A program made the position numbers and the translations under genes. Below, in pieces: positions 17,188-28,932 of a DNA stretch of 39,859 nucleotides (position 1 is its first letter; every line of letters begins with the position of its first letter). Origin of the DNA: Chloroflexota bacterium (GTDB lineage: Bacteria; Chloroflexota; Anaerolineae; Anaerolineales; Villigracilaceae); the NCBI GenBank assembly GCA_021824575.1, contig JAKAKJ010000015.1:1-39859 (forward strand), read 5' to 3'. The notes under the pieces were generated by a model, which worked only from the letters and a program-made list of their open reading frames with translations, was not told the DNA's origin and made no database searches.

Positions 17188-18840
17188 TTAAAACCCTTCT
17201 GCTACATATTCGCCCCACACAACACGCAGTGTATTACAAATCTCGCCAAGAGTGATGCTATTCTCCACGCATTCAATGAATAGCGGCATCAAATTCTCTG
17301 TGCCTTGTGCAACGACTTTCAACCTTTCAAGCAACTGCCCCACTTTACCCTGATCCCTATTATCTCTAAACTTCTTCAACCGTTCGTGCGCGGCAACCTC
17401 GATGGCGGGATCAACTTTCAAACGCTCCAACGTCAGATTTTCTTCCACCTGAAACCGATTGACTCCAACGATCACCTGCTCGCCGCGTTCAATCGCCTGC
17501 TGCGCTTCATACGCCGCGTTCTGAATTTCAGACTGCATGTAACCGCGCTCGATGGCCGTCAACGCGCCGCCCATCTCGTCAATCTTGAAGATGTATTCGG
17601 TCGCGCCCTGCTCGATTTGATCCGTCAGATATTCGATCAAATACGATCCAGCCAGCGGATCCACCGAATCGGCGACGCCTGATTCATACGCGATAATTTG
17701 TTGAGTCCGCAGCGCCACGCGCACGGATTTCTCTGTCGGAAGCCACAAAGCTTCGTCCATGGAATTGGTATGCAGACTCTGCGTTCCGCCGAGGACAGCA
17801 GATAATGCCTGTAGAGTCACTCGCACGACATTATTCTCCGGTTGCTGCGCGGTGAGCGTCGAACCGGCAGTTTGAGTATGAAAACGCAATTGCCATGATG
17901 CGGGCTTATGCGCCTTGAAGCGGTCGCGCATGATCTTGGCCCACAGCCGGCGCGCAGCGCGGAACTTGGCAACTTCTTCGAGTAAATTATTATGGGCGTT
18001 GAAGAAGAATGAAATCTGCGGTGCGAACTCGTCAACACTCAAGCCCGCGCGAATCGCGGCCTCGACGTACGCGATCCCATTCGCGAGCGTGAAAGCGACT
18101 TCCTGCACCGCGGTCGAACCTGCTTCACGGATGTGATAACCCGAAACGGAAATCGTATTCCAATTCGGGATTTCGCGCGCACAGAACGAAAAGATATCGG
18201 TGATGAGTCGCATCGAAGGCGCAGGCGGAAAGATATACGTCCCGCGCGCGACATATTCTTTCAAGATGTCATTCTGGATCGTGCCGCGCAGCGACTTCAT
18301 TTCCACGCCCTGCCGCTTCGCCACCGCGATATACATCGCCAGCAAAATGCCGGCCGGTGCGTTGATAGTCATTGAAGTGGAAACTTTATCGAGCGGGATT
18401 TGATCGAAGAGCCGCGCCATATCTTCGACTGTCGAAATCGAAACACCAACCTTGCCCACCTCGCCTTGTGCGATTGGGTCGTCCGCGTCGTAGCCGATTT
18501 GAGTCGGCAGATCGAACGCGACGCTCAATCCCGTTTGTCCGTGCTGCAACAAATAAAGATAGCGCTTGTTGGTTTCTTCGGCGGTGGCAAAACCCGCGTA
18601 CTGGCGCATCGTCCAAAAGCGTGAACGGTACATCGTCGGCTGGACGCCGCGCGTGAACGGGAACTCGCCCGGGAAGTTGAACTTGGCCTCGTAATCGGGA
18701 TCCACTTCGGGCGGGAGTCCGATGCGGGGCAATTCAATCCCCGAAGATGTTTCAAATTTATTTTTCCGCTCGGGGAATTTATCCAATGATTTCTTGAGTG
18801 TGTTCTCCTGCCATTTTTTGTATTGGTCCTGAAGAGTCAT
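17188..18840 (-). CDS. Methylmalonyl-CoA mutase, large (catalytic) subunit without B12 domain
   Basis: Interconverts methylmalonyl-CoA and succinyl-CoA using adenosylcobalamin. The 550 residues cover the TIM-barrel subunit: [74 protein letters not shown] and [14 protein letters not shown]. Tyr71 in TMYRSR and the Arg in APSMR are the residues that mark methylmalonyl- rather than isobutyryl-CoA mutase (where Phe and Gln occur). The chain stops before the C-terminal B12-binding DxHxxG domain, so a separate small subunit must exist elsewhere. GGTGA lies four bases before the ATG. Confidence 0.93.
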
Positions 18841-18856
18841 ATTGTCACCACTTTTG

Positions 18857-18959
18857 AACCGCGAAGCGCGCGAAGATCGCGAAGAAAAAAACTTGAGAAA
18901 AACTTTGCGTCCTCCCTTGAAAGAGCGTTGCGCTCTTCGCGGTTAATCTTTTCTCAAGT
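18857..18959. repeat. Composite inverted-repeat element upstream of the mutase gene
   Basis: Three perfect inverted pairs: AACCGCGAAG (18857-18866)/CTTCGCGGTT (18935-18944), ACTTGAGAAA (18891-18900)/TTTCTCAAGT (18950-18959) and AAGAGCG-TTG-CGCTCTT (18921-18937). The GCGAAG-type units resemble a dispersed repeat I have seen in many genomes. It fills the gap between the divergent mutase and zinc-ribbon genes. Confidence 0.65.
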
Positions 18960-19012
18960 ATACAGCCAAAGGGCACAGCGCAGAATTGGACAATATTAGG
19001 CGGAATATCAGG

Positions 19013-19052
19013 ACAAATGTCATTTGTGAGGTATAAACGAAAATGCTACACT
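19013..19052 (+). promoter_or_regulatory. Promoter with overlapping palindromic operator
   Basis: TTGTGA (19024-19029) and TACACT (19047-19052) are 17 bases apart. ACAAATG-T-CATTTGT (19013-19027) is a perfect odd palindrome overlapping the -35 box. This is the likely start of the 19080-25701 cluster. Confidence 0.55.
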
Positions 19053-19079
19053 TCTCGTATATCAACTCAGGAGAATTCT

Positions 19080-19475
19080 ATGAAACCAGTTACCTGGATT
19101 TACATTGGCGCAGTTGTTCTTTTTTTCTTCGCGGCGGCGGGTATTTGCCTGGGAGGTTTTATTCTTCTTGGCGCATCTGGCGGAGCACAAGGCGTGACGG
19201 GGATTGGAACTGCTGGAATGGGCATCGGCGTCGTTGCACTGGTTGGCGGGATTGTCCTGATCATCCTAGCCGTAAATAAAACCAAACAGGAGACCGCGCA
19301 AAACGTGACGCTCAAAGTTGATCTGCCCGGCGATACCAAGATTTCACAAGTCACGTGCAAGAATTGCGGCGGCGCGTTAAAACCGGAGAACATCAAAATG
19401 GTGGCCGGCGCGCCGATGGTCGAATGTCCGTTCTGCGGAACAACGTATCAATTGACAGAAGAACCAAAGTGGTAA
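19080..19475 (+). CDS. Small membrane protein with C-terminal zinc ribbon
   Basis: 131 residues. Two glycine-rich membrane helices (about 5-30 and 40-65) are followed by a short soluble part ending in a zinc ribbon with two CxxC knuckles, CKNCGGAL and CPFCGTTY. Function unknown. GGAGA lies six bases before the ATG. It opens the radical-SAM cluster and its promoter carries a palindrome; whether it belongs functionally is inferred only from direction and spacing (60 bases to the next gene). Confidence 0.75.
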   Translation: MKPVTWIYIGAVVLFFFAAAGICLGGFILLGASGGAQGVTGIGTAGMGIGVVALVGGIVLIILAVNKTKQETAQNVTLKVDLPGDTKISQVTCKNCGGALKPENIKMVAGAPMVECPFCGTTYQLTEEPKW

Positions 19476-19535
19476 TTCAATTGCGAGTTATGTTTTATAT
19501 TTCAAAACACAATCCGCAAAACGCAAGGAGGTTCC

Positions 19536-21218
19536 ATGCCCCGAAAATTCATAACTTTCCTTTATATTTTATTCATCGCATTGATATTGCCTGCCAGCGC
19601 ACTGGCGCAAGGTTCGTATCTCTTCAGCGTGGACAAGGAAGTCGTCAACGTGTATTGGAATGCAGATGGCACCGAGTCGCTGGACTACACATTCAACTTC
19701 ACGAACCAGCCGGGCGCGCATCCAATTGATTATGTTGATGTGGGAATGCCGAACGGCAACTTCGACATGAGCACCGTCACCGCGGATGTGAATGGCAGCC
19801 GCGTTGATGTTTCACAAAGTGATTATCAGGGGAGCGGCTCGGGTTTCTCGGTTGTGATGGGACAATATACCATCGAACCTGGCGCAAGCGGAACAGTCCA
19901 CGTTTACGTTGGGAGCATCACGGGCGTTTTGTATCCAGATACCAGCGACAGCAATTACGCCAGCGCTGATTTCGCACCAACTTATTTCGATTCGCAATAC
20001 GTGTCCGGCAGCACAGATTTGACCGTTACCTTCCATCTGCCGCCGGGAGTCAAACCGAACGAACCGCGCTGGCATTCATCGCCATCCGGCTTCGCGTCCC
20101 AGCCGCAAACCGGAATCGATTCGCAAAACCGCGTCACGTACACATGGGAATCAGCCGGAGCAAACGCGTACACACAATACACATTTGGCGCGTCCTTCCC
20201 GAAAAGCTATGTACCTGATTCTGCCATCGTGCAAACGTCAATCTTCGACGTGCTGGGCGGCATTTTCTCCTTCCTGATCGCCAGCCTCGGAAACATCCTT
20301 TGCTTCGGATTTTTCGCGTTCATGTTCATCGGCTTACCGATCATTGGCGCCATTCAGGGACAGCGGCGCAAACTGCAATACATCCCGCCTAAAATTGGAA
20401 TTGAGGGTCATGGCATCAAACGCGGACTGACTGCCGTTGAAGCTGCCATTCTGTTGGAGCAGCCCCTCGACAAAATCATGACGATGATCTTGTTTGGCGT
20501 TGTGAAGAAGGGCGCGGCAACCGTCACTTCGCGCGATCCGCTCAAACTCCAAATCAACGATGTGCCATCCGATGTCACGCTGCACGATTACGAGTTGAAC
20601 TTTCTAAAAGCTTTCAAATTGGATTCTCTCGAGGCTCGCCGCGCAGAATTGCAGGGCATGATGGTGGCATTGGTCAAATCTGTCTCCGAAAAAATGAAGG
20701 GCTTCAGCCGCAAAGAGACGCAGGATTATTACAGGAACATCATGGAACGAGCCTGGCAGCAAGTGGAAGCCGCGCAGACTCCCGATGTCAAAGCTCAAGC
20801 CATTGATCAGAATCTCGAATGGACGATGCTCGACCGCGATTACGATGATCGCTCGCGGCGCGTCTTCACCGGACCAATCTTTGTACCCATGTGGTGGGGA
20901 AGTTATGACCCAATGTACCGCCCCGCTGCTCCAACCATGACAACCGGCTCGATGACAACTGCTCTTCCAACTGGCGGACGATCTCCATCCGCATTGCCTG
21001 GCGCAGAATTTGCCGCGTCCGTGGTGGGCGGCGTGCAAACCATGTCGAGCAAAGTCATTGGCAACTTGAACTCATTTACGAGCGGCGTGACCAATGTGAC
21101 CAATCCACCGCCCCCGCCCTCGACTGGCGGCGGTTATCGCGGCGGTGGAGGCGGGGGCTGTGCCTGCGCTTGTGCGTGCGCCGGCTGCGCCTGCGCCTGT
21201 GCCGGCGGCGGACGATAA
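19536..21218 (+). CDS. Secreted/membrane protein with a Cys-Ala repeat C-terminus, possible modification substrate
   Basis: 560 residues. Signal peptide about 1-25 (ALAQG), an extracellular region (26-235) with repeated aromatic-acidic segments somewhat like DUF2207 proteins, a membrane segment at about 240-275, and a long cytosolic part with GLTAVEAAILLEQPLDKIMTM and a helical region. The end is unusual: a proline run, a glycine run, then GCACACACAGCACACAGGGR (541-560), with seven Cys alternating with Ala. The Cys and Ala codons vary (TGT/TGC, GCC/GCT/GCG), which points to selection on the protein. AGGAGG lies six bases before the ATG. A radical SAM/SPASM enzyme gene follows after 33 bases. 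A substrate role is my inference. Confidence 0.85.
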   Translation: MPRKFITFLYILFIALILPASALAQGSYLFSVDKEVVNVYWNADGTESLDYTFNFTNQPGAHPIDYVDVGMPNGNFDMSTVTADVNGSRVDVSQSDYQGSGSGFSVVMGQYTIEPGASGTVHVYVGSITGVLYPDTSDSNYASADFAPTYFDSQYVSGSTDLTVTFHLPPGVKPNEPRWHSSPSGFASQPQTGIDSQNRVTYTWESAGANAYTQYTFGASFPKSYVPDSAIVQTSIFDVLGGIFSFLIASLGNILCFGFFAFMFIGLPIIGAIQGQRRKLQYIPPKIGIEGHGIKRGLTAVEAAILLEQPLDKIMTMILFGVVKKGAATVTSRDPLKLQINDVPSDVTLHDYELNFLKAFKLDSLEARRAELQGMMVALVKSVSEKMKGFSRKETQDYYRNIMERAWQQVEAAQTPDVKAQAIDQNLEWTMLDRDYDDRSRRVFTGPIFVPMWWGSYDPMYRPAAPTMTTGSMTTALPTGGRSPSALPGAEFAASVVGGVQTMSSKVIGNLNSFTSGVTNVTNPPPPPSTGGGYRGGGGGGCACACACAGCACACAGGGR

Positions 21219-21251
21219 TTTCACATTCTCAATTTTATTATAGGTACAGCC

Positions 21252-22616
21252 ATGACAATATTCGATACGCTTTTCACCTCGAAATCAAAAGTCGAGAATC
21301 CGAAACCCGGACTTTATCATTATCGCTTTGATGCCGAAGATGAAAAGAGCCGCGCGCATTTACGCGTCGACCCCGATGGCACCGGCACGTTGATCGTCAA
21401 CGCCAACCGCGTCATGCACTTGAATCCGACTGCGGCGTTCATGGCGTGGATGATTCTCGAAGGCAGGCATGATGGTGAGATTCTCAAGACTTGCTCAAAG
21501 AAATGGAATGTGAGAAGCAGTCAATTACGCGATGACCTTTCTGCTTTCCACTTTCAACTCACTGAGTTGATTCGTCCCGACGGTGCCTGCCCAATCCATG
21601 AATTGGATTTGGACACAACCATGCCGTTCAGCGCGCGGCCGTCTGCACCGTATCGAATGGATTTGGCAGTCACGTATCGCTGCAACAATGACTGCGCGCA
21701 CTGCTATAACGCGCGTGAACGCAACTTCCCGGAACTGACAACGGAGCAATGGTTCAAGATCATGGATCAACTCTGGGAATTGGGCATACCGCACATTGTC
21801 TTTACCGGCGGTGAAGCGACACTGAGAAATGACCTGCCGGAATTAATTGCTCATGCCGAATCGAATGGACAGATTACAGGCTTGAATACCAATGCCCGCC
21901 GCCTGGCTGACGAAAAATACGTGCAACAACTTATCGACGCGGGACTCGACCACGTTCAAATCACGGTTGAATCGTGCGATGAGGAAGTCCACGACCAAAT
22001 GATGCGCGCCAAAGGCGCTTTCAAGCAAACCATCCGCGGACTCAAGAACGCGCTCGCCAGTCCGCTGTATGTGATGACCAACACCACAATGTTGCGGACG
22101 AATGTTCACAAGATTCCCGACACATTGGACTTCCTCGCCGACCTCGGCGTTCCAACGATTGGACTCAACGCCTTGATTTATTCCGGTCACGGCTTGACGG
22201 TTGGAACCGGACTCAAAGAAAGCGAGCTTCAGCCCATTCTTGATATCGCCACGCGCAAAACCACCGAACGAGGACAGAAACTCATCTGGTACACGCCCAC
22301 GCAATACTGCCAATTCGATCCGACCGCGAACAATCTCGGCGTCAAAGGATGTACCGCCGCGTTGTACAGCATGTGCATCGAATCGAATGGAAATGTTTTG
22401 CCGTGCCAGTCTTATTATCATTCACTTGGCAATATGCTGACCGATTCATGGGACTCGATTTGGAATCATGATTTGTCGCTTCAGCTTCGCGAGCGACGCG
22501 ATTTACCCGCGAAATGCAATGGCTGTTCGCTGGTCCCGGAATGCGGCGGAGGATGCCCGCTGCAATTTGAAAATCACCGCGAATCTTTTGGAGTGAACCT
22601 GCCAATTCTAAATTAG
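21252..22616 (+). CDS. Radical SAM/SPASM enzyme with N-terminal PqqD-like domain
   Basis: 454 residues. Residues about 20-105 resemble PqqD, the RiPP precursor recognition element: DPDGTGTLIVNANRVMHLNP then TAAFMAWMILEGRHDGEIL. The radical SAM core has C144-N-N-D-C148-A-H-C151 for the 4Fe-4S cluster and TGGEATLR for SAM binding. The C-terminal SPASM part has further Cys: GCTAALYSMC, GNVLPCQSYY, and CNGCSLVPECGGGCPLQ for auxiliary clusters. Such fusions modify ribosomal peptides or proteins. It follows the Cys-Ala-tailed protein and precedes a cluster containing a degenerate paralogue. Product chemistry is not predictable from sequence alone. Confidence 0.92.
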   Translation: MTIFDTLFTSKSKVENPKPGLYHYRFDAEDEKSRAHLRVDPDGTGTLIVNANRVMHLNPTAAFMAWMILEGRHDGEILKTCSKKWNVRSSQLRDDLSAFHFQLTELIRPDGACPIHELDLDTTMPFSARPSAPYRMDLAVTYRCNNDCAHCYNARERNFPELTTEQWFKIMDQLWELGIPHIVFTGGEATLRNDLPELIAHAESNGQITGLNTNARRLADEKYVQQLIDAGLDHVQITVESCDEEVHDQMMRAKGAFKQTIRGLKNALASPLYVMTNTTMLRTNVHKIPDTLDFLADLGVPTIGLNALIYSGHGLTVGTGLKESELQPILDIATRKTTERGQKLIWYTPTQYCQFDPTANNLGVKGCTAALYSMCIESNGNVLPCQSYYHSLGNMLTDSWDSIWNHDLSLQLRERRDLPAKCNGCSLVPECGGGCPLQFENHRESFGVNLPILN

Positions 22617-22619
22617 CAA

Positions 22620-22659
22620 TGGTCGAGTAGTGGCGCTCTGGCACCACGTATCGAGGCCA
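22620..22659 (-). repeat. Dispersed repeat, GGTCTCGATAC...TACTCGACC type, copy 3
   Basis: TGGTCGAGTAG (22620-22630) and TATCGAGGCCA (22649-22659) bracket a variable centre; same family as 2262-2305 and 2322-2365. It lies between two genes of the radical-SAM cluster, right before a ribosome binding site. Confidence 0.7.
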
Positions 22660-22668
22660 GGAGATGAC

Positions 22669-23016
22669 ATGAGTCAACACGAATGGATCAAAGAATTTCC
22701 TGCGGCGGTCACCGTCTGCGATGCGGAAGGCATCATCATCGAAATGAACGACAAAGCCGCCAAAACTTATGAGAAAGGCGGCGGTTACGCATTGATCGGA
22801 AAGAACATGCACGATTGCCACGCAGACAAAGAGACGGCGCGCAATAAAGTCGAACAGATGTTATCCACACACGAGAAAAACGTGTACACCATCGAGAAGG
22901 GTGGCGTGAAGAAAATGATCTTTCAATCGCCGTGGTTCAAAGATGGAAAGTATGCCGGTTTTGTGGAACTCTCGCTTGAGATTCCGTTCGAGGTGCCGCA
23001 CTTTATCCGCTCGTAA
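22669..23016 (+). CDS. Single-domain PAS protein
   Basis: 115 residues forming one PAS domain: FPAAVTVCDAEGIIIEMNDK, KTYEKGGGYALIGKNMHDCH and a C-terminal MIFQSPWFKDGKYAGFVELS. It resembles PAS domains associated with DUF438 or small sensor proteins; no kinase or output domain is attached. AGGAGATG precedes the ATG at 22669. The frame is open 13 codons further upstream, but those codons fall in a dispersed repeat. Possible roles are sensing or cofactor binding for the neighbouring radical SAM enzymes; this is inference. Confidence 0.82.
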   Translation: MSQHEWIKEFPAAVTVCDAEGIIIEMNDKAAKTYEKGGGYALIGKNMHDCHADKETARNKVEQMLSTHEKNVYTIEKGGVKKMIFQSPWFKDGKYAGFVELSLEIPFEVPHFIRS

Positions 23017-23030
23017 AATTTTGATGGACC

Positions 23031-24065
23031 ATGTCTTTGAAAAACGCTGAGATTTGCTACCTGCTGGCTTTCCCGGATCGCGTGGACTCGTCCAATGAGC
23101 CGCCCGAACAGATTCGCGGCTTGAAGGACGCCCCGTACTTCCAGCCGGTGGATATCTCCGTCAGGACGCTGGCCGGATGGGCCGAAGTCGAGGTGAGAGG
23201 CGTGCAAGTCTCCACTGTGCGGCAAAGGTATGATGACCGAATCCAAATGATCGAATGCCGCTTCACATTGGATGATGTGCTGGATCTCGCGGCGATCCAA
23301 CAATGCGCTTCCATCGAAAAATCCTTGCAGGAAAAATTCGTCCCTGCCGAACATCGCGAGAGCGGAATGTTCGAGGAGTACGTCATCTTATTGCTAAAGA
23401 AAGTCAATCCGACCCCCGAAAAATTCGTAAATAAAAACGCGGTCGCGTTGGCGCGCTTTGTTCGTTCACAACGCGAGACTTTTGATCAACGCGAAATAGA
23501 TGACATTCTCAGTTCTCAAGTGCGCTATTCGAAAGACGATTTGACGGTGGTGGATTGGCAGGCGGCGATCATCATTGCGCCGGACGGCGATTTTCAGTCG
23601 GATATTGAATTATTGAAGATTGGCAATTATCAACTCATGCGTTATCGCAGGCTCGATCAAAACATCGAGAAGAGCTTGCGCGATCTCAACGAACAATTCC
23701 GTGTTGATCCGCACCGCGCGCTCCGCATCGGTCCGACGAGAGGCCAGATCCGCCACATCGTCCAGCATCGTCTCGATTTAATGCTCGACTTCGAACATAC
23801 CGAACAAAATCTGTTATTGATTGGCGATTGGTACACCTCCCAGCTTTATCACGCCATCCTCGAGGAGTTTTATCTGAACGAGTGGAAAGAAACCGTCAAA
23901 GGCAAACTCGATAATCTGGAAGGCATCATCGAAACCATTCAGGAAAATTTTTCGCTCACGTGGCAGGGTCTGATGGAACGCGTCGAATTGGCAGGCTGGA
24001 TTGTTTTGCTGATCGGCTATTTCATTTTGTTCTTTCTCGAATCCGGCATATTTCGATTACATTGA
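23031..24065 (+). CDS. Membrane-anchored protein of unknown function (weakly RMD1/DUF155-like)
   Basis: 344 residues. No family motif is certain. A soluble alpha/beta region (1-200) is followed by a long helical part, including LDLMLDFEHTEQNLLLIGDW and EGIIETIQENFSLTWQGLME, and a single C-terminal membrane helix (about 318-338) ending ESGIFRLH. The order (soluble part, coiled helices, one C-terminal helix) is like the YagE/RMD1 (DUF155) family, but I could not confirm it. The gene starts 14 bases after the PAS gene stop and its own stop lies 11 bases before the next gene, so it is co-transcribed with the radical-SAM genes. Confidence 0.7.
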   Translation: MSLKNAEICYLLAFPDRVDSSNEPPEQIRGLKDAPYFQPVDISVRTLAGWAEVEVRGVQVSTVRQRYDDRIQMIECRFTLDDVLDLAAIQQCASIEKSLQEKFVPAEHRESGMFEEYVILLLKKVNPTPEKFVNKNAVALARFVRSQRETFDQREIDDILSSQVRYSKDDLTVVDWQAAIIIAPDGDFQSDIELLKIGNYQLMRYRRLDQNIEKSLRDLNEQFRVDPHRALRIGPTRGQIRHIVQHRLDLMLDFEHTEQNLLLIGDWYTSQLYHAILEEFYLNEWKETVKGKLDNLEGIIETIQENFSLTWQGLMERVELAGWIVLLIGYFILFFLESGIFRLH

Positions 24066-24076
24066 TGGAGGGCACC

Positions 24077-25204
24077 ATGAAAAAATTCTTTACGAAAGTC
24101 CAACCGATGAAAGCGGGCATTTACCAAAAACAATCCGCGCCGCAGGACCAGCCTCCCTACCGCATTCATCTGCGATTACAGCCTGACGGCTCCGGCGTGC
24201 TGATCGTCAATGCCTCAACCGTCCTGCATCTCAATCCAACAGCGGCTGAGTTTGCTTATCACTTCATCAAAGGCACCGCGCCCGAGGACGCGGCAAAGGA
24301 AGTCGCTTCGCGTTATCGGATCAATCGAAAGACCGCTCTGGAGGACTTCAATGATTTTGCGGCGCGAATTCAGCGAATGGTGACCGCCACGGATTTAGAT
24401 CCCGAATCGTATCTTGACTTTGAGCGGGTCGCACCCCACTCGACCGATCTCACCGCCCCACTGCGACTCGATTGCGCACTGACCTATCGCCTCCCCGCCG
24501 GCACGCAAGCCGATTACGCACCGACCAAACGCGTCGACCGCGAACTCACCACCGACGAATGGCGCGTCATCCTCGATAGCGCATGGCAATTCGGAATCCC
24601 TCACGTCACCTTCACAGGCGGCGAAGCGACTCTGCGTGACGACTTGCCCGATTTGATTGCGCGCGCGGAGAAGAACGGCCAGGTCTGCGGATTGCTGACC
24701 GACGGTCTGAAGCTCGCCGATAAAAATTATCTCGATCTGTTATTGAAGACAGGACTCGATCACATTCTCTTTCTGCTTCAGCCCAATAACAACGATTCGT
24801 GGAAAGCGCTCGAAACCATCATGCCCGAGGATATTTTTGTGACGGTACATTTCACGTTGACGCCGCAAAACGCGCCAAGTGCAAAAGAAACATTGAGCCG
24901 ATTATCCGGGCTTGGAGTCAACAGTTTATCGTTGAGCGCATCCGACGTGTCTTTGCATGATGCCATGCACGATTTGCACAATACCGCCGCATCGCTGGGA
25001 ATGACCCTGCGCTGGGATTTGCCGGTTCCGTATTCAGCCGAGAATCCGGTCGCGAATCAAACAGTAGAAGATGAAATCCCGGTTGGAGCCGGAAAGGCGT
25101 GGTTGTATGTCGAGCCGGATGGCGATGTCCTTCTAACACAAGGCATGGCAGATAAAATTTTGGGCAACTTGTTACGCGATTCATGGGAGAAGATTTATCA
25201 GTAA
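24077..25204 (+). CDS. PqqD-fused radical SAM-like protein lacking the cluster cysteines (pseudoenzyme)
   Basis: 375 residues, clearly paralogous to the radical SAM protein at 21252. The PqqD-like domain is kept (LQPDGSGVLIVNASTVLHLN). The core aligns through LTYR and ELTTDEW to TFTGGEATLRDDLPDLIARA, so the SAM-binding glycine motif persists. However, the three cluster cysteines are replaced: C144 by Leu139, C148 by Thr143, C151 by Asp146 in RLPAGTQADY. The SPASM cysteines are gone and the chain is shorter. It therefore cannot cleave SAM by the usual mechanism and may act as substrate-binding or structural partner. GGAGG lies five bases before the ATG. The frame is otherwise intact, with no stop. 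Confidence 0.85.
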   Translation: MKKFFTKVQPMKAGIYQKQSAPQDQPPYRIHLRLQPDGSGVLIVNASTVLHLNPTAAEFAYHFIKGTAPEDAAKEVASRYRINRKTALEDFNDFAARIQRMVTATDLDPESYLDFERVAPHSTDLTAPLRLDCALTYRLPAGTQADYAPTKRVDRELTTDEWRVILDSAWQFGIPHVTFTGGEATLRDDLPDLIARAEKNGQVCGLLTDGLKLADKNYLDLLLKTGLDHILFLLQPNNNDSWKALETIMPEDIFVTVHFTLTPQNAPSAKETLSRLSGLGVNSLSLSASDVSLHDAMHDLHNTAASLGMTLRWDLPVPYSAENPVANQTVEDEIPVGAGKAWLYVEPDGDVLLTQGMADKILGNLLRDSWEKIYQ

Positions 25205-25212
25205 GAGGCGGT

Positions 25213-25701
25213 ATGAAAATATCGAGCATTTTCGCCGTCTTCAAGAGATGGGAATACCGCGACGGCCAACCCAACACGTTGGCAAAGATGCAAAACCGGT
25301 TCTGGGCAATCCTCCATTCATCAGGGATATTACCCGACGGCTTCGTCACGCTGGAAGTGGCCGGAAGGAAATCAGGGAAAATAATAAGTTTTCCACTTGC
25401 GATGACGGTCGTGGATGGAGAAAGATATTTGGTATCCATGTTGGGAGAAGAAGCAAACTGGGTGCGAAATGTCAAGGCGGCAGGAGGAAGAGCGAGGCTG
25501 CAACACGGCATCAGCGAGCAGGTTTTGCTTGAAGAGGTGGATGTTGGCAAGAGAGCGCCAATCTTGAAGGCATATTTGCAAATTGCGCCGGGAGCGCGTC
25601 CGCACATACCTGTTGGCAAAGACGCGCCCATTGCCGAGTTCGAAAAAATAGAATCAGAGTATCCGGTATTCAGGCTGGCAACTATAAACTATTCAGGTTA
25701 A
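25213..25701 (+). CDS. DDN-family (F420-type) nitroreductase-like protein
   Basis: 162 residues. VTLEVAGRKSGKIISFPLAM then VDGERYLVSMLGEEANWVRN is the signature of the deazaflavin-dependent nitroreductase (DDN/PF04075) family, split-barrel proteins binding F420. AGAGG is five bases before the ATG at 25213; the radical-SAM paralogue stops eight bases upstream. An F420-type enzyme at the end of the cluster may be a redox partner; a chance neighbour is equally possible. Confidence 0.87.
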   Translation: MKISSIFAVFKRWEYRDGQPNTLAKMQNRFWAILHSSGILPDGFVTLEVAGRKSGKIISFPLAMTVVDGERYLVSMLGEEANWVRNVKAAGGRARLQHGISEQVLLEEVDVGKRAPILKAYLQIAPGARPHIPVGKDAPIAEFEKIESEYPVFRLATINYSG

Positions 25702-25995
25702 CCTGATTGGTTTACAACGTCATGCTCTCGGCGATGTCCTCGCCGCCGAGGACGGCGGCTGAAGCAGAAGTTAGTTGCCAGGCAATTCATGCTAACCGGA
25801 ATAACATCATTTTCAGAATTGGCAAAAAATCCAATCCAAAAACGTCCGGCGTTTTAAAGGCTGAACATCTTTCGATATTTCGTCAGAGAAGGATTTGCCA
25901 ATTGTGCTTTTCGCTGCGAAATCTGACAACCGGCAGGCTGCGGTCGCGGCCAGACTTATTCTGGCCTAACCAATTTAAGTTAGAATTTTGCAGTC
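25702..25995. other. Gene-free spacer with small hairpins
   Basis: 294 bases without a credible gene. It holds GTCCTCG-CCGC-CGAGGAC near 25735, AAAACG-TCCGG-CGTTTT near 25838 and GGCCAG/CTGGCC near 25950. TTAGAAT lies 10 bases before the next ATG and may be a -10 box without a clear -35. Confidence 0.5.
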
Positions 25996-27075
25996 ATGAA
26001 AACCAGATTACCTATATGGGCAGCGTTCCTTATTTCGCTTGCAATCATGATACTGGTGTTGTGCAGCTTTATCGGTTCCATTCCAACGATACCCATTCGG
26101 CCGACAAACTCATTCTTCAACCCAACGCCCATTCTCGTCACGCAAATATCTCCAACGCCGGCACTTGTTTGTCCCACTGGCGATTGCGTCAATGCGTGTC
26201 TTGCCAAAATAAATTCCATCCTGCAAACCGACTCTGTGCCGCAATCGCCGCCGGAAGTCGCCGCACCTCACGGCACAAAAATCCAAGCCGCAACGCTGGT
26301 AAGTTATTTCGTTCAGGGCGGCCAGCTAAGCGCTCCAAAATTTGCTTCGAATATCCCATCTGACCTGATTCCGTACCAGCAGGATACAGTTTCCCAGCAG
26401 CGCATCTGGGATTACTTCACCGCGATGGTTCCCGCAAATCAACGAACGGAACTGACCGCCTTCATTCTTTCCACCGATGGCAAAGGCGGCATGCTGGCAA
26501 GCGTGGAAGAATCTTCCAATGAGCCGCAGTACTGGGCTTTGACTGTCGATCCGCTGGATGCATCTAAACCGATCAATTTAACATACACTCTTGCACACGA
26601 ATTCGGCCATTTGCTGACGCTGAACGACACACAGGTCACGCCCGATCCGCTGTATCTCGCCAATCCAAGCCTGCAAGTGTATCAGCAGGAAGCCGCGAGT
26701 TGTCCGCAATACTTCACAACTGTCGGGTGCAGCCATCCCAATTCGTACATCAACGAATTCTTCCAGTTTTTCTGGGTCAAGTTGTTCAACGAGTGGAGTC
26801 AGGTCAACGCGGAAAAAGACCAAAAGAATTATTTCGCGAACCTGGCTCATTTTTATGAGCGGCATCCAACCCAATTCGTCAGCACGTACGCCGCCACCAG
26901 CCCGGAGGAGGACATCGCGGAAAGCTTCGCCCACTTCGTCCTGAATCCCAAGCCGCCCGCCGACAGCATCGCACACGAGAAAATGCTGTTCTTCTACGAA
27001 TTCCCCGACCTGGTGCAATTACGCATTCAAATGGTGAATGGAATTTGCAATTATGCTTCCACATCCGGGCCGTGA
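25996..27075 (+). CDS. Secreted zincin-type metalloprotease-like protein, copy 1
   Basis: 359 residues. An N-terminal hydrophobic signal segment (about 8-30, with LVLC possibly a lipobox) is followed by a Pro/Thr linker. The catalytic domain has AHEFGHLLTL, the HExxH zinc motif, and EEDIAESFAHFVL about 120 residues later, whose Glu could be the third zinc ligand. Around it are conserved Cys pairs (SCPQYFTTVGC). No close family name is available to me; the motif group is gluzincin-like. No ribosome binding site is visible, so it may be translated from a short leader. The next gene is a paralogue. Confidence 0.78.
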   Translation: MKTRLPIWAAFLISLAIMILVLCSFIGSIPTIPIRPTNSFFNPTPILVTQISPTPALVCPTGDCVNACLAKINSILQTDSVPQSPPEVAAPHGTKIQAATLVSYFVQGGQLSAPKFASNIPSDLIPYQQDTVSQQRIWDYFTAMVPANQRTELTAFILSTDGKGGMLASVEESSNEPQYWALTVDPLDASKPINLTYTLAHEFGHLLTLNDTQVTPDPLYLANPSLQVYQQEAASCPQYFTTVGCSHPNSYINEFFQFFWVKLFNEWSQVNAEKDQKNYFANLAHFYERHPTQFVSTYAATSPEEDIAESFAHFVLNPKPPADSIAHEKMLFFYEFPDLVQLRIQMVNGICNYASTSGP

Positions 27076-27152
27076 AACCCTCTGCGGAAGGCACTCGATA
27101 CAAATTGATATTGGGACAAGACCCCATAGAAACGTTATGGTATCCTAACCGC

Positions 27153-28190
27153 ATGAGATGCTTCCGCGTCATCTTATTTGCAGTTGTCGTTCTCGCCTCG
27201 ACTTTGGCCTGCAGCGTCGCCACGCGCCTGATCTTTGGCAATACGCCAGCGCCCCCCGCGCGATCCGAAGCGACGCTCCCCGCCTTCCCATCACCGACCG
27301 CAACCAGTCAGGCATCCGATTCGTGCCCGGCGGAAATATCCACCATCCTCGATGCAGCCAACAACTCGACTTATCAAAGCAGTTTTCCCAGCGTGGATAC
27401 CGGCGACCAATCCGATATTCCGATGGTCATTTACACCGTCAGCGGCAACGAGATCACCAATCCGATTTTGGAAAAAGTCCCGCGCGATTTGATCAAGTAT
27501 CAAAACGATTACAAGCTCCAGAAACAAAGCTGGGATTTGTTCGTGGCGATTATCCCGCCGGACCAACGCGCAGTTGTGCATCAATATGAGATCATCACAG
27601 ACGGCCAAGGGGGCGTTCTCGGCGCGGTCGAACAATCTCCTTTCGATCCCAATACATGGATGCTCGAAGTGGATATCGCCGATGCGTCCGACACCAAGAA
27701 TCTCGTCTTCACCATGCTTCACGAATTTGGACACCTGCTGACGCTCAATCCGTCGCAGGTGCCGCCTGATTTAAAAGTATTCGACAATCCAGCAGATAAT
27801 GATATTTACAGCCAGGAAGTCAATGCTTGTTCGACATATTTTCCAGGCGAAGGCTGCAGCCTGGCGAATTCCTACATCAATGTTTTCTTCAACCGTTTCT
27901 GGACGAACATTTACGCCGAATGGCAAAAAATTGACGACATCCAGAATGACCAGAAGCGCGAGAACCGGCTGGAGTCCTTTTACAGGAAGTATCGGGACCA
28001 ATTCGTTGACGATTATGCTGTAACCAATCCGTCCGAGGATATTGCCGAAACGTGGGCTTACTATATCCTGATCCCAAAACCGAAAGGCAACAGCATCGCC
28101 GACCAAAAAATAAATTTCTTTTACCAGTACCCCGAACTCGTCCAACTGCGCCAGCAGATTTTGACAAACCTGTGCGCTGCAAATCCATGA
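27153..28190 (+). CDS. Lipoprotein zincin-type metalloprotease-like protein, copy 2
   Basis: 345 residues, similar to the preceding protein throughout: lipobox STLAC at the end of the signal peptide (about 1-20), a Pro/Ser/Thr linker, the zinc motif LHEFGHLLTL, a conserved CSTYFPGEGC pair, and SEDIAETWAYYILIPKPKGN at the C-terminal side. The start at 27153 gives a proper lipoprotein signal; the frame is open 36 codons further upstream without one. TATCCT six bases before the ATG suggests a leaderless transcript. It probably acts at the outer face of the membrane. Confidence 0.78.
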   Translation: MRCFRVILFAVVVLASTLACSVATRLIFGNTPAPPARSEATLPAFPSPTATSQASDSCPAEISTILDAANNSTYQSSFPSVDTGDQSDIPMVIYTVSGNEITNPILEKVPRDLIKYQNDYKLQKQSWDLFVAIIPPDQRAVVHQYEIITDGQGGVLGAVEQSPFDPNTWMLEVDIADASDTKNLVFTMLHEFGHLLTLNPSQVPPDLKVFDNPADNDIYSQEVNACSTYFPGEGCSLANSYINVFFNRFWTNIYAEWQKIDDIQNDQKRENRLESFYRKYRDQFVDDYAVTNPSEDIAETWAYYILIPKPKGNSIADQKINFFYQYPELVQLRQQILTNLCAANP

Positions 28191-28203: not shown

Positions 28204-28932
28204 ATGAACTGGCATGAACGTTATATCCAGCAGGCAGCATGGACGCGCGATCTGCGGGAGTACCTTTTCCGGCAGGCGGGATTATCCGGCGCAAATTCCG
28301 TTCTTGAAGTCGGATGCGGAACGGGTGCAGTTTTATCCTCACTGGAAACATCGGCGGCGCTTCACGGCCTCGACCTCGACGCGGGCGCGCTGGCCGAATG
28401 CCGCCGCGTATCAAACGCCTCCCTGACGCGCGGCGACGCGCATGATCTTCCTTATCGAAACGAAAGCTTCGATATCGTCTATTGTCATTTTCTGTTGTTA
28501 TGGATCAAGGAGCCGTTGAAGGCAATTTATGAGATGAAACGCGTGACAAAATCCAAGGGCCACATTCTTGCATTTGCCGAGCCTGATTACACATCCCGCG
28601 AAGATAAACCCGATCCGCTCGCGGTCCTTGGAAAATGGCAAACTGAAGCGTTGAAACGCCAGGGCGCGGACATCGGCCTCGGCGGGCGTTTGGCGGAACT
28701 GTTCCATCAGGCCGGAATCAAAATCGTCGAAACGGGAGCCATCCAAAGTCGAAGCCCCGAAGCGATGGATCCCGACGAATGGGAAAATGAATGGGCTGTG
28801 ATCGAATCAGATTTATCGGGATTCGCCCAGCGGGAAGAAATCCAAAAGATGAAACATCTGGATGAGGAAGCGCGGACGCATGGCACACGCGTCTTGGATG
28901 TGCCGACGTACTTCGCATGGGGTCAGGTATAA
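28204..28932 (+). CDS. Class I SAM-dependent methyltransferase
   Basis: 242 residues with motif I VLEVGCGTGAVLSSL, acidic motif II HGLDLDAGAL, ARGDAH-like segment (TRGDAHDLPY), and FDIVYCHFLLLWIKEPLKA, typical of Methyltransf_11/25 proteins. Substrate unknown. It starts 13 bases after the second protease and has no clear ribosome binding site. It is followed by the signal peptidase gene. Confidence 0.86.
   Translation: MNWHERYIQQAAWTRDLREYLFRQAGLSGANSVLEVGCGTGAVLSSLETSAALHGLDLDAGALAECRRVSNASLTRGDAHDLPYRNESFDIVYCHFLLLWIKEPLKAIYEMKRVTKSKGHILAFAEPDYTSREDKPDPLAVLGKWQTEALKRQGADIGLGGRLAELFHQAGIKIVETGAIQSRSPEAMDPDEWENEWAVIESDLSGFAQREEIQKMKHLDEEARTHGTRVLDVPTYFAWGQV

Follow-up and report, generated by a model that had tools for sequence, protein, structure and literature searches.

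The window and its gene run

The stretch of DNA analysed here (hereafter the window; 39,859 nucleotides, lying on contig C7 of a 3.64-Mb Chloroflexota genome in 98 contigs) carries at positions 19080–25701 seven genes, which we call ZnR, Tail, rS1, PAS, CTM, rS2 and DDN. A previous sequence-only reading of the window had described them as a run in one direction with small gaps, and this description held: all seven are open, lie on the plus strand and are closely spaced. Tail encodes a membrane protein of about 560 residues that ends in a Cys-Ala repeat, and rS1 encodes a radical S-adenosylmethionine (SAM)/SPASM enzyme with a PqqD-like N-terminal domain. We consider it likely that the run belongs to a dedicated protein-modification system of Chloroflexota that takes the C-terminal end of the Tail protein as its substrate; the carriers are a group of mostly uncultured Chloroflexota.

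Relatives were sampled at several levels. The close set comprises 80 loci around relatives of rS1, one genome per species and the best 80 of 366 relatives, and counts of individual components over these loci include only those with enough flanking DNA. The distant set comprises 40 stretches from 31 genomes, which were searched with profiles built from the close loci. Genome surveys covered the phylum (301 genomes; rS1 at E 1e-40, Tail at E 1e-10) and the class (396 genomes; rS1 at E 1e-100, Tail at E 1e-30). Alignments contained selected members only: 46 for Tail, 38 for rS1, and 20 and 25 for two others.

Conservation of the Cys-Ala tail

The Tail protein of the window ends in ...GGGGGGCACACACAGCACACAGGGR-stop, and the general pattern of the tail is (CA)nG(CA)nGGGR. 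An identical stretch of 17 residues, CACACAGCACACAGGGR, closes 81 of the 86 Tail-family open reading frames (ORFs) in the 80 close loci, preceded by one extra CA in 64 ORFs and by two in 4. The tail is missing from five ORFs: L035, which is a broken N-terminal fragment, and four short paralogues (L094, L095, L106, L110) that consist only of the ectodomain and lie beside an intact Tail. The 81 tails are encoded by 81 distinct DNA sequences, which differ pairwise at a mean of 9.1 of the 17 codons. Because all of these DNA sequences are different, it is the protein sequence and not the DNA that is conserved, and conservation of repetitive DNA by itself is ruled out as an explanation, since the codons differ freely. 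Among 77 aligned sequences the mean fraction of the most frequent residue was 0.98 in the tail, 0.77 in residues 488–530 and 0.58 in the Gly-rich linker between them. The Cys-Ala tail is under extreme selection.

Nor is the tail a product of chance. We scanned 2371 mechanically defined ORFs of at least 150 residues from loci L001–L113 and L140–L179, some of which overlap, and found at least five Cys among the last 22 residues in 132 of them: 126 carry the CA tail, 4 carry a CHSA-type tail (two genes, each counted twice) and 2 are of other kinds. In the window's own genome, the pattern of three repeated Cys-Ala codon pairs occurs only at the Tail gene. A scan of viral contigs for the pattern gave one match (L117), which we take to be chance; no ORF of at least 60 residues ends there with the tail.

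Co-occurrence of Tail and rS1

The sequence-only reading had proposed the tail as a plausible substrate of this PqqD-fused SPASM system, and had held that Tail orthologues commonly found without radical SAM genes would speak against this. In our analysis the tail accompanies the PqqD-fused SPASM enzyme and is the best substrate candidate. We looked for such cases. In the class survey, 60 genomes have both Tail and rS1, 1 has Tail only, 11 have rS1 only and 324 have neither, so that 60 of the 61 genomes with Tail also have rS1. In the phylum survey, 21 genomes match rS1 and 19 match Tail, and none has Tail without rS1; the genomes with rS1 only are G096, whose match is the rS2 orthologue, and G136. 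Of the 37 genomes listed for the window's order, 28 carry the two genes and 9 carry none of them, and genera g2, g3 and g4 each include carriers and non-carriers. A query with the tail peptide alone (26 residues), which misses diverged tails, retrieved 40 genomes, all 40 of them in the rS1 set.

The best rS1 and the best Tail lie on different contigs in nine genomes. In four of these (G384, G452, G525 and G626) the flanks of rS1, 5.8 kb or longer in both directions, contain no Tail; a shared operon therefore cannot explain the co-occurrence in these four, which rule it out as the sole cause.

Architecture of the Tail protein

The Tail protein consists of a signal segment, a beta-rich ectodomain, a transmembrane (TM) segment, a winged-helix-like and helical domain, the linker and the Cys-Ala tail. 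In the structure model (mean predicted local distance difference test score, pLDDT, 79.9; predicted TM-score, pTM, 0.46) we take the N-terminal helix as the signal peptide; the ectodomain spans residues 30–222, the TM helix 236–258 and a further helix 488–507. The tail itself is modelled with low confidence and is probably disordered. In a Foldseek comparison the ectodomain resembled the N-terminal domain of M1 aminopeptidases (E 6.4e-7, with TM-scores of only about 0.2–0.3). Four close loci also hold Tail paralogues made of the ectodomain plus a TM segment, lacking the cytosolic domain and the tail, just upstream of the full Tail gene (L094:2603-3430, L095:5321-6172, L106:1985-2812 and L110:1615-2454).

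Among 21 close members scanned, the window protein included, 9 have a single hydrophobic stretch of 25–31 residues after the ectodomain, followed by four to six Lys or Arg residues. Because of this positive charge behind a single hydrophobic stretch, the positive-inside rule would place the tail on the cytoplasmic side. In the other members, including the window protein (where it reaches up to residues 236–275), the hydrophobic stretch is longer or split, and two membrane passes are possible. The window protein matches neither DUF2207 (PF09972), for which one of 46 relatives gave a match (best E 1.8e-5 in Pfam), nor TIGR04222, whose cut-off of 43 bits was not reached. At E 0.01, five of the 46 relatives match TIGR04222 (best 4.2e-6; three of the scores are 16.2, 22.8 and 24.9 bits), and these weak matches suggest that Tail is a remote TIGR04222/DUF2207-like protein. 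Directly upstream of the linker and tail, an LPG...TNP segment is present in 70 of 77 sequences; we propose that residues 488–530 form a recognition, or leader-like, segment.

A disordered tail with six or more Cys in CxC spacing, next to a gene for a zinc-ribbon protein, would also fit an unmodified, metallothionein-like site that binds a metal or an Fe-S cluster, with rS1 acting elsewhere in the same physiological unit. Such a site should tolerate other spacers, but Ala and Gly are as invariant as Cys in all 81 tails. The tail also tracks rS1 even where the two are unlinked, and it is absent from two Tail-like ORFs that lie outside the cluster, L138 in G200 and L139 in G248, both seen in loci of about 3.5 kb. 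On balance we regard an unmodified metal-binding tail as unlikely.

The enzyme rS1 and the pseudoenzyme rS2

The rS1 protein of the window matches the Pfam models Radical_SAM (100.5 bits), SPASM (PF13186, 39 bits) and PqqD (PF05402, 26.0 bits), all above their cut-offs. All 80 close and all 31 distant members carry both the radical SAM motif CxxxCxxC and the SPASM cysteines CxxCx5CxxxC. In the AlphaFold2 model (mean pLDDT 81.6, pTM 0.84), residues 20–107 form four strands and three helices, as expected for a recognition element (RRE) of ribosomally synthesized and post-translationally modified peptide (RiPP) pathways, and for this reason we predict an RRE there. RRE prediction was a check that the sequence-only reading had put forward, and for rS1 the PqqD match, the model and the alignment with SuiB agree on an RRE-like N-terminal domain. 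By fold, rS1 aligns with SuiB from residue 24 (Z 26.9, rmsd 3.6, 370 residues) and, tied with it, with SkfB from residue 33 (Z 26.8, rmsd 3.7, 342 residues); by sequence profile the best solved relatives are SkfB (4.3e-34) and PqqE (7.5e-34). The closest solved relatives are thus peptide maturases, with anSME also among them. Eleven Cys are invariant in the 38 aligned members. C113 (21588–21590) and C353 (22308–22310) are among these and lie outside the radical SAM and SPASM motifs; they may be extra cluster ligands or catalytic residues.

None of the equivalog models compared claims rS1. Its scores are 138.1 bits for PqqE (cut-off 381.35), 96.6 for SkfB (300), 116 for NirJ (515.45) and 123.5 for AhbD (500), and it falls far under the cut-off of the AlbA model. 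Matches to PqqE, NirJ and AhbC/AhbD could mean that the product of rS1 is a small molecule, or that its target is a tetrapyrrole or some other peptide, with Tail and ZnR serving as a sensor or transporter. This is very unlikely in our judgement, because the matches lie far under the equivalog cut-offs, rS1 bears an RRE-like domain and, as regards another peptide or a short precursor, inspection by eye of the two larger gaps that flank the gene run (18841–19535 and 25702–25995) showed no ORF of at least 20 residues containing a Cys-repeat core.

The rS2 protein still scores above the cut-off for Radical_SAM (38.2 bits) and lacks CxxxCxxC; its PqqD match was 24.1 bits in one scan and 21.2 in another (cut-off 23.4). 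In 74 close rS2 ORFs of at least 340 residues, neither CxxxCxxC (0/74) nor the SPASM cysteines (0/74) occur, and TGGE is present in all 74. Among 15 second copies in the distant set, CxxxCxxC is likewise absent (0/15) and the SPASM cysteines are kept in 14. As judged from these motifs, rS2 is a real, conserved pseudoenzyme, as the sequence-only reading had called it. That reading had also proposed to check whether the tailed protein co-occurs with both radical SAM proteins. For rS1 this was the case; rS2 accompanies the system in 67 of 67 testable close loci and is not universal, since it was not seen in several distant stretches with Tail or rS1, including L153, L154 and L156, where Tail and rS1 are present and no second radical SAM copy was seen. 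A full-length rS2 orthologue in G096 (L186:2598-3743) is apparently a remnant.

Distant members and a second type of tail

In the distant stretches, 31 ORFs match the Tail profile. Of these, 26 end in (CA)nG(CA)3-4GGGR, one (L146) shows the tail as far as GGG before running into unknown bases, and two are cut at contig ends. Two Tail-like membrane proteins with weak TIGR04222 matches, from two genomes of different families (L157:4049-5794 and L158:8090-9808), end instead in a CHSA repeat, ACHSACHSAC.... The rS1 homologues beside them are 32 and 30% identical to rS1, and L158 also holds, close by, a gene for a small membrane protein whose zinc-ribbon match is weak. A search of 191 genomes with the L158 protein found only the two genomes already known. 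In these two genomes, an enzyme of a divergent clade is accompanied by a related membrane protein whose Cys tail has likewise diverged.

The CA tail was also seen on other proteins. A second tail protein of 255 residues, with one TM segment by eye and no ectodomain, is encoded between Tail and rS1 in L072 (7215-7982). In L171 (990-4409), an ORF of 1139 residues beside rS1, kinase/ATPase-like by eye, ends with the pre-tail segment and the CA tail. It may be a real fusion or an assembly chimera, and because of the latter it is only suggestive; the contig is 8.8 kb long and the genome is listed with 8% contamination.

Its C-terminal position, the invariant GGGR end and its presence on these other proteins would suit a tail that serves, unmodified, as a sorting, degradation or interaction tag, the pair of radical SAM proteins being kept alongside for an unrelated reason. 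Against this stand the joint absence of tail and rS1 in several genera and the case of an rS1 homologue linked to another, different type of Cys-repeat tail, which together leave the tag explanation hardly likely at all.

Other genes of the locus

The features of the locus are collected in Table 1. The start of rS2 is either 24065, which overlaps the CTM stop, or 24077; the search queries for ZnR and rS2 started one codon ahead of 19080 and 24077. Several calls of the sequence-only reading needed qualification. The zinc ribbon of ZnR stands by its two CxxC pairs, identified by eye, and no Pfam zinc-ribbon model matched at its cut-off; the PAS match, at 22.5 bits, is slightly under its cut-off of 23.1. 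PAS and the C-terminally anchored CTM, which had been counted as members of the set, proved to be optional. No Pfam family scored above its cut-off for CTM. The seventh gene does match F420H2_quin_red (25.5 bits, cut-off 22), but we rejected it as a component, contrary to that reading, given its presence at one of 57 loci.

Table 1. Features of the locus, with their occurrence in testable close loci where counted
Feature	Positions	Strand	Occurrence or basis
ZnR: small membrane protein, C-terminal zinc ribbon (two CxxC)	19080..19475	+	68/69 loci
Tail protein	19536..21218	+	75/75 testable loci
Conserved segment, Tail residues 488–530 (helix, then TNPPP), before Gly-rich linker	20997..21125	+	
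C-terminal core CACACACAGCACACAGGGR, proposed modification site	21159..21215	+	
rS1: PqqD-like (RRE) – radical SAM – SPASM enzyme	21252..22616	+	
Predicted RRE domain of rS1, residues 20–107	21309..21572	+	secondary structure, PF05402, SuiB alignment
PAS-like small protein, optional	22630..23016	+	29/57 loci
CTM: C-terminally anchored membrane protein, optional	23031..24065	+	38/57 loci
rS2: PqqD-like – radical SAM pseudoenzyme	24065..25204	+	67/67 testable loci
DDN/F420H2-quinone-reductase-like gene, lineage-specific neighbour	25183..25701	+	1/57 loci
MT: class I SAM methyltransferase, proposed component	28204..28932	+	47/57 loci

Downstream on the same strand follow M1, M2, MT and a signal peptidase I-like gene, LepB, so named from its sequence. 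The methyltransferase was missed by the sequence-only reading, whose component range of 19080–25701 does not reach it. In the distant set, the MT profile matched in 19 of 40 stretches. Eighteen of the matches cluster together, 17 of them at 93–244 bits and one (L163), cut by the end of its stretch, at 66; 15 of the 18 lie directly beside rS1 or Tail. The two other distant matches reached 50 and 32 bits, and one in G096 reached 25 bits. In the 80 close loci MT is 45–87% identical to the window MT, with one further ORF in L050 at 33%. None of eight genomes without Tail and rS1 has a close MT homologue, five matches of at most 52 bits being spread over four of them; this test of absence covered genomes without the system, as distinct from those with the system and no adjacent MT. 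Because MT recurs in distant loci and has no close homologue in the system-less genomes, we count it as a probable further component. In NCBIfam it comes closest to the DVU_1556 family methyltransferase, scoring 60.6 bits against a cut-off of 155.

LepB is present in 42, M2 in 25 and M1 in 9 of 57 close loci. M1 and M2 (25996–28190) are tandem related ORFs with HEFGH motifs, metallopeptidase-like and found in part of the relatives; M1 has weak metallopeptidase matches under the Pfam cut-off, M2 is named by its likeness to M1, and the two, which we keep as optional members like PAS and CTM, could process the Tail ectodomain. On the minus strand, a methylmalonyl-CoA mutase subunit gene (MCM, 17188–18840) forms a stable, divergently oriented neighbour, present in 49 of 60 testable loci. 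Neither MCM nor LepB was found by profile in the distant stretches, and both look like synteny of the close group.

Proposed mechanism and its weight

The known targets of radical SAM/SPASM enzymes are mostly short peptides that are excised and released. By analogy with the established working of RRE-bearing SPASM maturases, we propose that the rS1 RRE would bind the C-terminal region of Tail, with the conserved segment ahead of the Gly-rich linker as the probable site, and that the radical SAM/SPASM chemistry of rS1 would then act on the Cys-Ala repeats at the predicted cytoplasmic C-terminus. The catalytically dead rS2, which keeps an RRE-like domain, would most likely help to present the substrate where rS2 exists, and MT might add a second modification, perhaps on thiols or on the C-terminal carboxylate. 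Cys-derived thioethers are a tentative choice for the chemistry, somewhat more likely wrong than right; as a speculation, two CA blocks around one Gly could give a hairpin with nested thioethers. The product may serve as a membrane-anchored soft-metal or redox site. The wider picture, in which rS1, with MT and in many lineages a pseudoenzyme partner, makes a membrane-tethered equivalent of a RiPP, with a poly-thioether or other Cys-derived site in the tail, at least two tail types (CA and CHSA repeats) matched to two enzyme clades and a mobile tail module, seems to us evenly poised.

Several points weigh against modification of the tail by this system. That the tail is the substrate, and that it is modified at all, is what we infer, and Tail is far larger than the usual peptide precursor. 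The enzyme rS1 also matches the tetrapyrrole enzymes NirJ, AhbC and AhbD, if under their cut-offs. The Fisher P of 1.9e-58 over the 396 genomes overstates independence, since the sampled species are related. Five of the nine different-contig cases are less telling than the four cited above: those in G309 and G594 may be contig breaks, in G336 another tailed ORF adjoins rS1, in G507 one side of rS1 is covered, and in G512 the flanks lie outside the sample. At the thresholds used, Tail is missing from eleven genomes with rS1; it was found nearby by profile in G428, G618, G631 and G636, rS1 lies on a short contig or near a contig end in G305, G410, G437 and G503, and G304, G475 and G643 are without explanation. 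The one genome with Tail only, G609, has Tail, the pseudoenzyme and an MT-like gene, and a search for rS1 at E 1e-15 returned only the pseudoenzyme and one partial match of 30% identity; in its congeners G507, G525 and G626, rS1 and Tail are on different contigs. Finally, G096, which at the thresholds used is one of the nine genomes of the order with neither Tail nor rS1, has kept rS2.

If a modified tail is nevertheless the correct reading, the substrate range of radical SAM/SPASM enzymes would extend to fixed tails of membrane proteins, and a role would suggest itself for some of the Cys-tailed membrane proteins noted in other phyla. The tail would offer radical SAM chemistry a compact, strictly defined target of 19 residues, and the conserved dead paralogue would make the role of radical SAM pseudoenzymes directly testable.

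Comparison with known systems

In open PMC papers, the strings CACACAGGGR and CHSACHSAC were not found, and the open PMC literature gave nothing for DUF2207 together with radical SAM, or for radical SAM with Anaerolineae and SPASM. The closest published idea that we found there concerns TIGR04222 membrane proteins with a Cys-rich C-terminus, which are putative substrates of MNIO (DUF692) enzymes according to the sections of PMC12452194 considered here. As described in those sections, the two proposals share large membrane proteins, a disordered Gly/Ser-rich C-terminus that bears Cys, and a RiPP-type enzyme. They differ in that the enzyme here is a PqqD-fused radical SAM/SPASM protein and there an MNIO, and MNIO (DUF692) gave no match among nine window proteins scanned or in the window methyltransferase. 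The tail is nearly invariant here and diverse there, is predicted to be cytoplasmic here and periplasmic there, and occurs in Chloroflexota here and mostly in Actinomycetota there; genomes with Tail and without rS1 number 1 of 61, whereas Table 3 of that paper gives 490 of 1372 TIGR04222 genomes without MNIO. The same source describes Cys-modified bufferins that act with copper, a model for a soft-metal or redox product (PMC12452194, in part).

The sactipeptide and ranthipeptide maturases SkfB, CteB and AlbA share with rS1 the RRE – radical SAM – SPASM architecture and a Cys-rich target, but here a membrane protein of about 560 residues would be modified at its end, and no separate small precursor was seen. 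A RiPP system in the strict sense has a short ribosomal precursor peptide, which sets it apart from the system described here. SuiB is the best fold match (tied with SkfB) and PqqE the second-best sequence match, although the score of rS1 is under the PqqE cut-off. SuiB and PqqE form C–C crosslinks in short peptides. Among radical SAM/SPASM enzymes with Cys targets in proteins instead of short peptides are anSME and QhpD, which act on a sulfatase active-site residue and a small dehydrogenase subunit; the proposed target here is instead a repetitive membrane-protein tail. The ACGX system (TIGR04340) also has a radical SAM/SPASM enzyme as partner of an Ala-Cys repeat, and all 38 aligned rS1 members match its model at E 1e-5 or better. 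The targets of the ACGX system are small peptides, whereas the Cys-Ala repeat described here is carried by a membrane protein.

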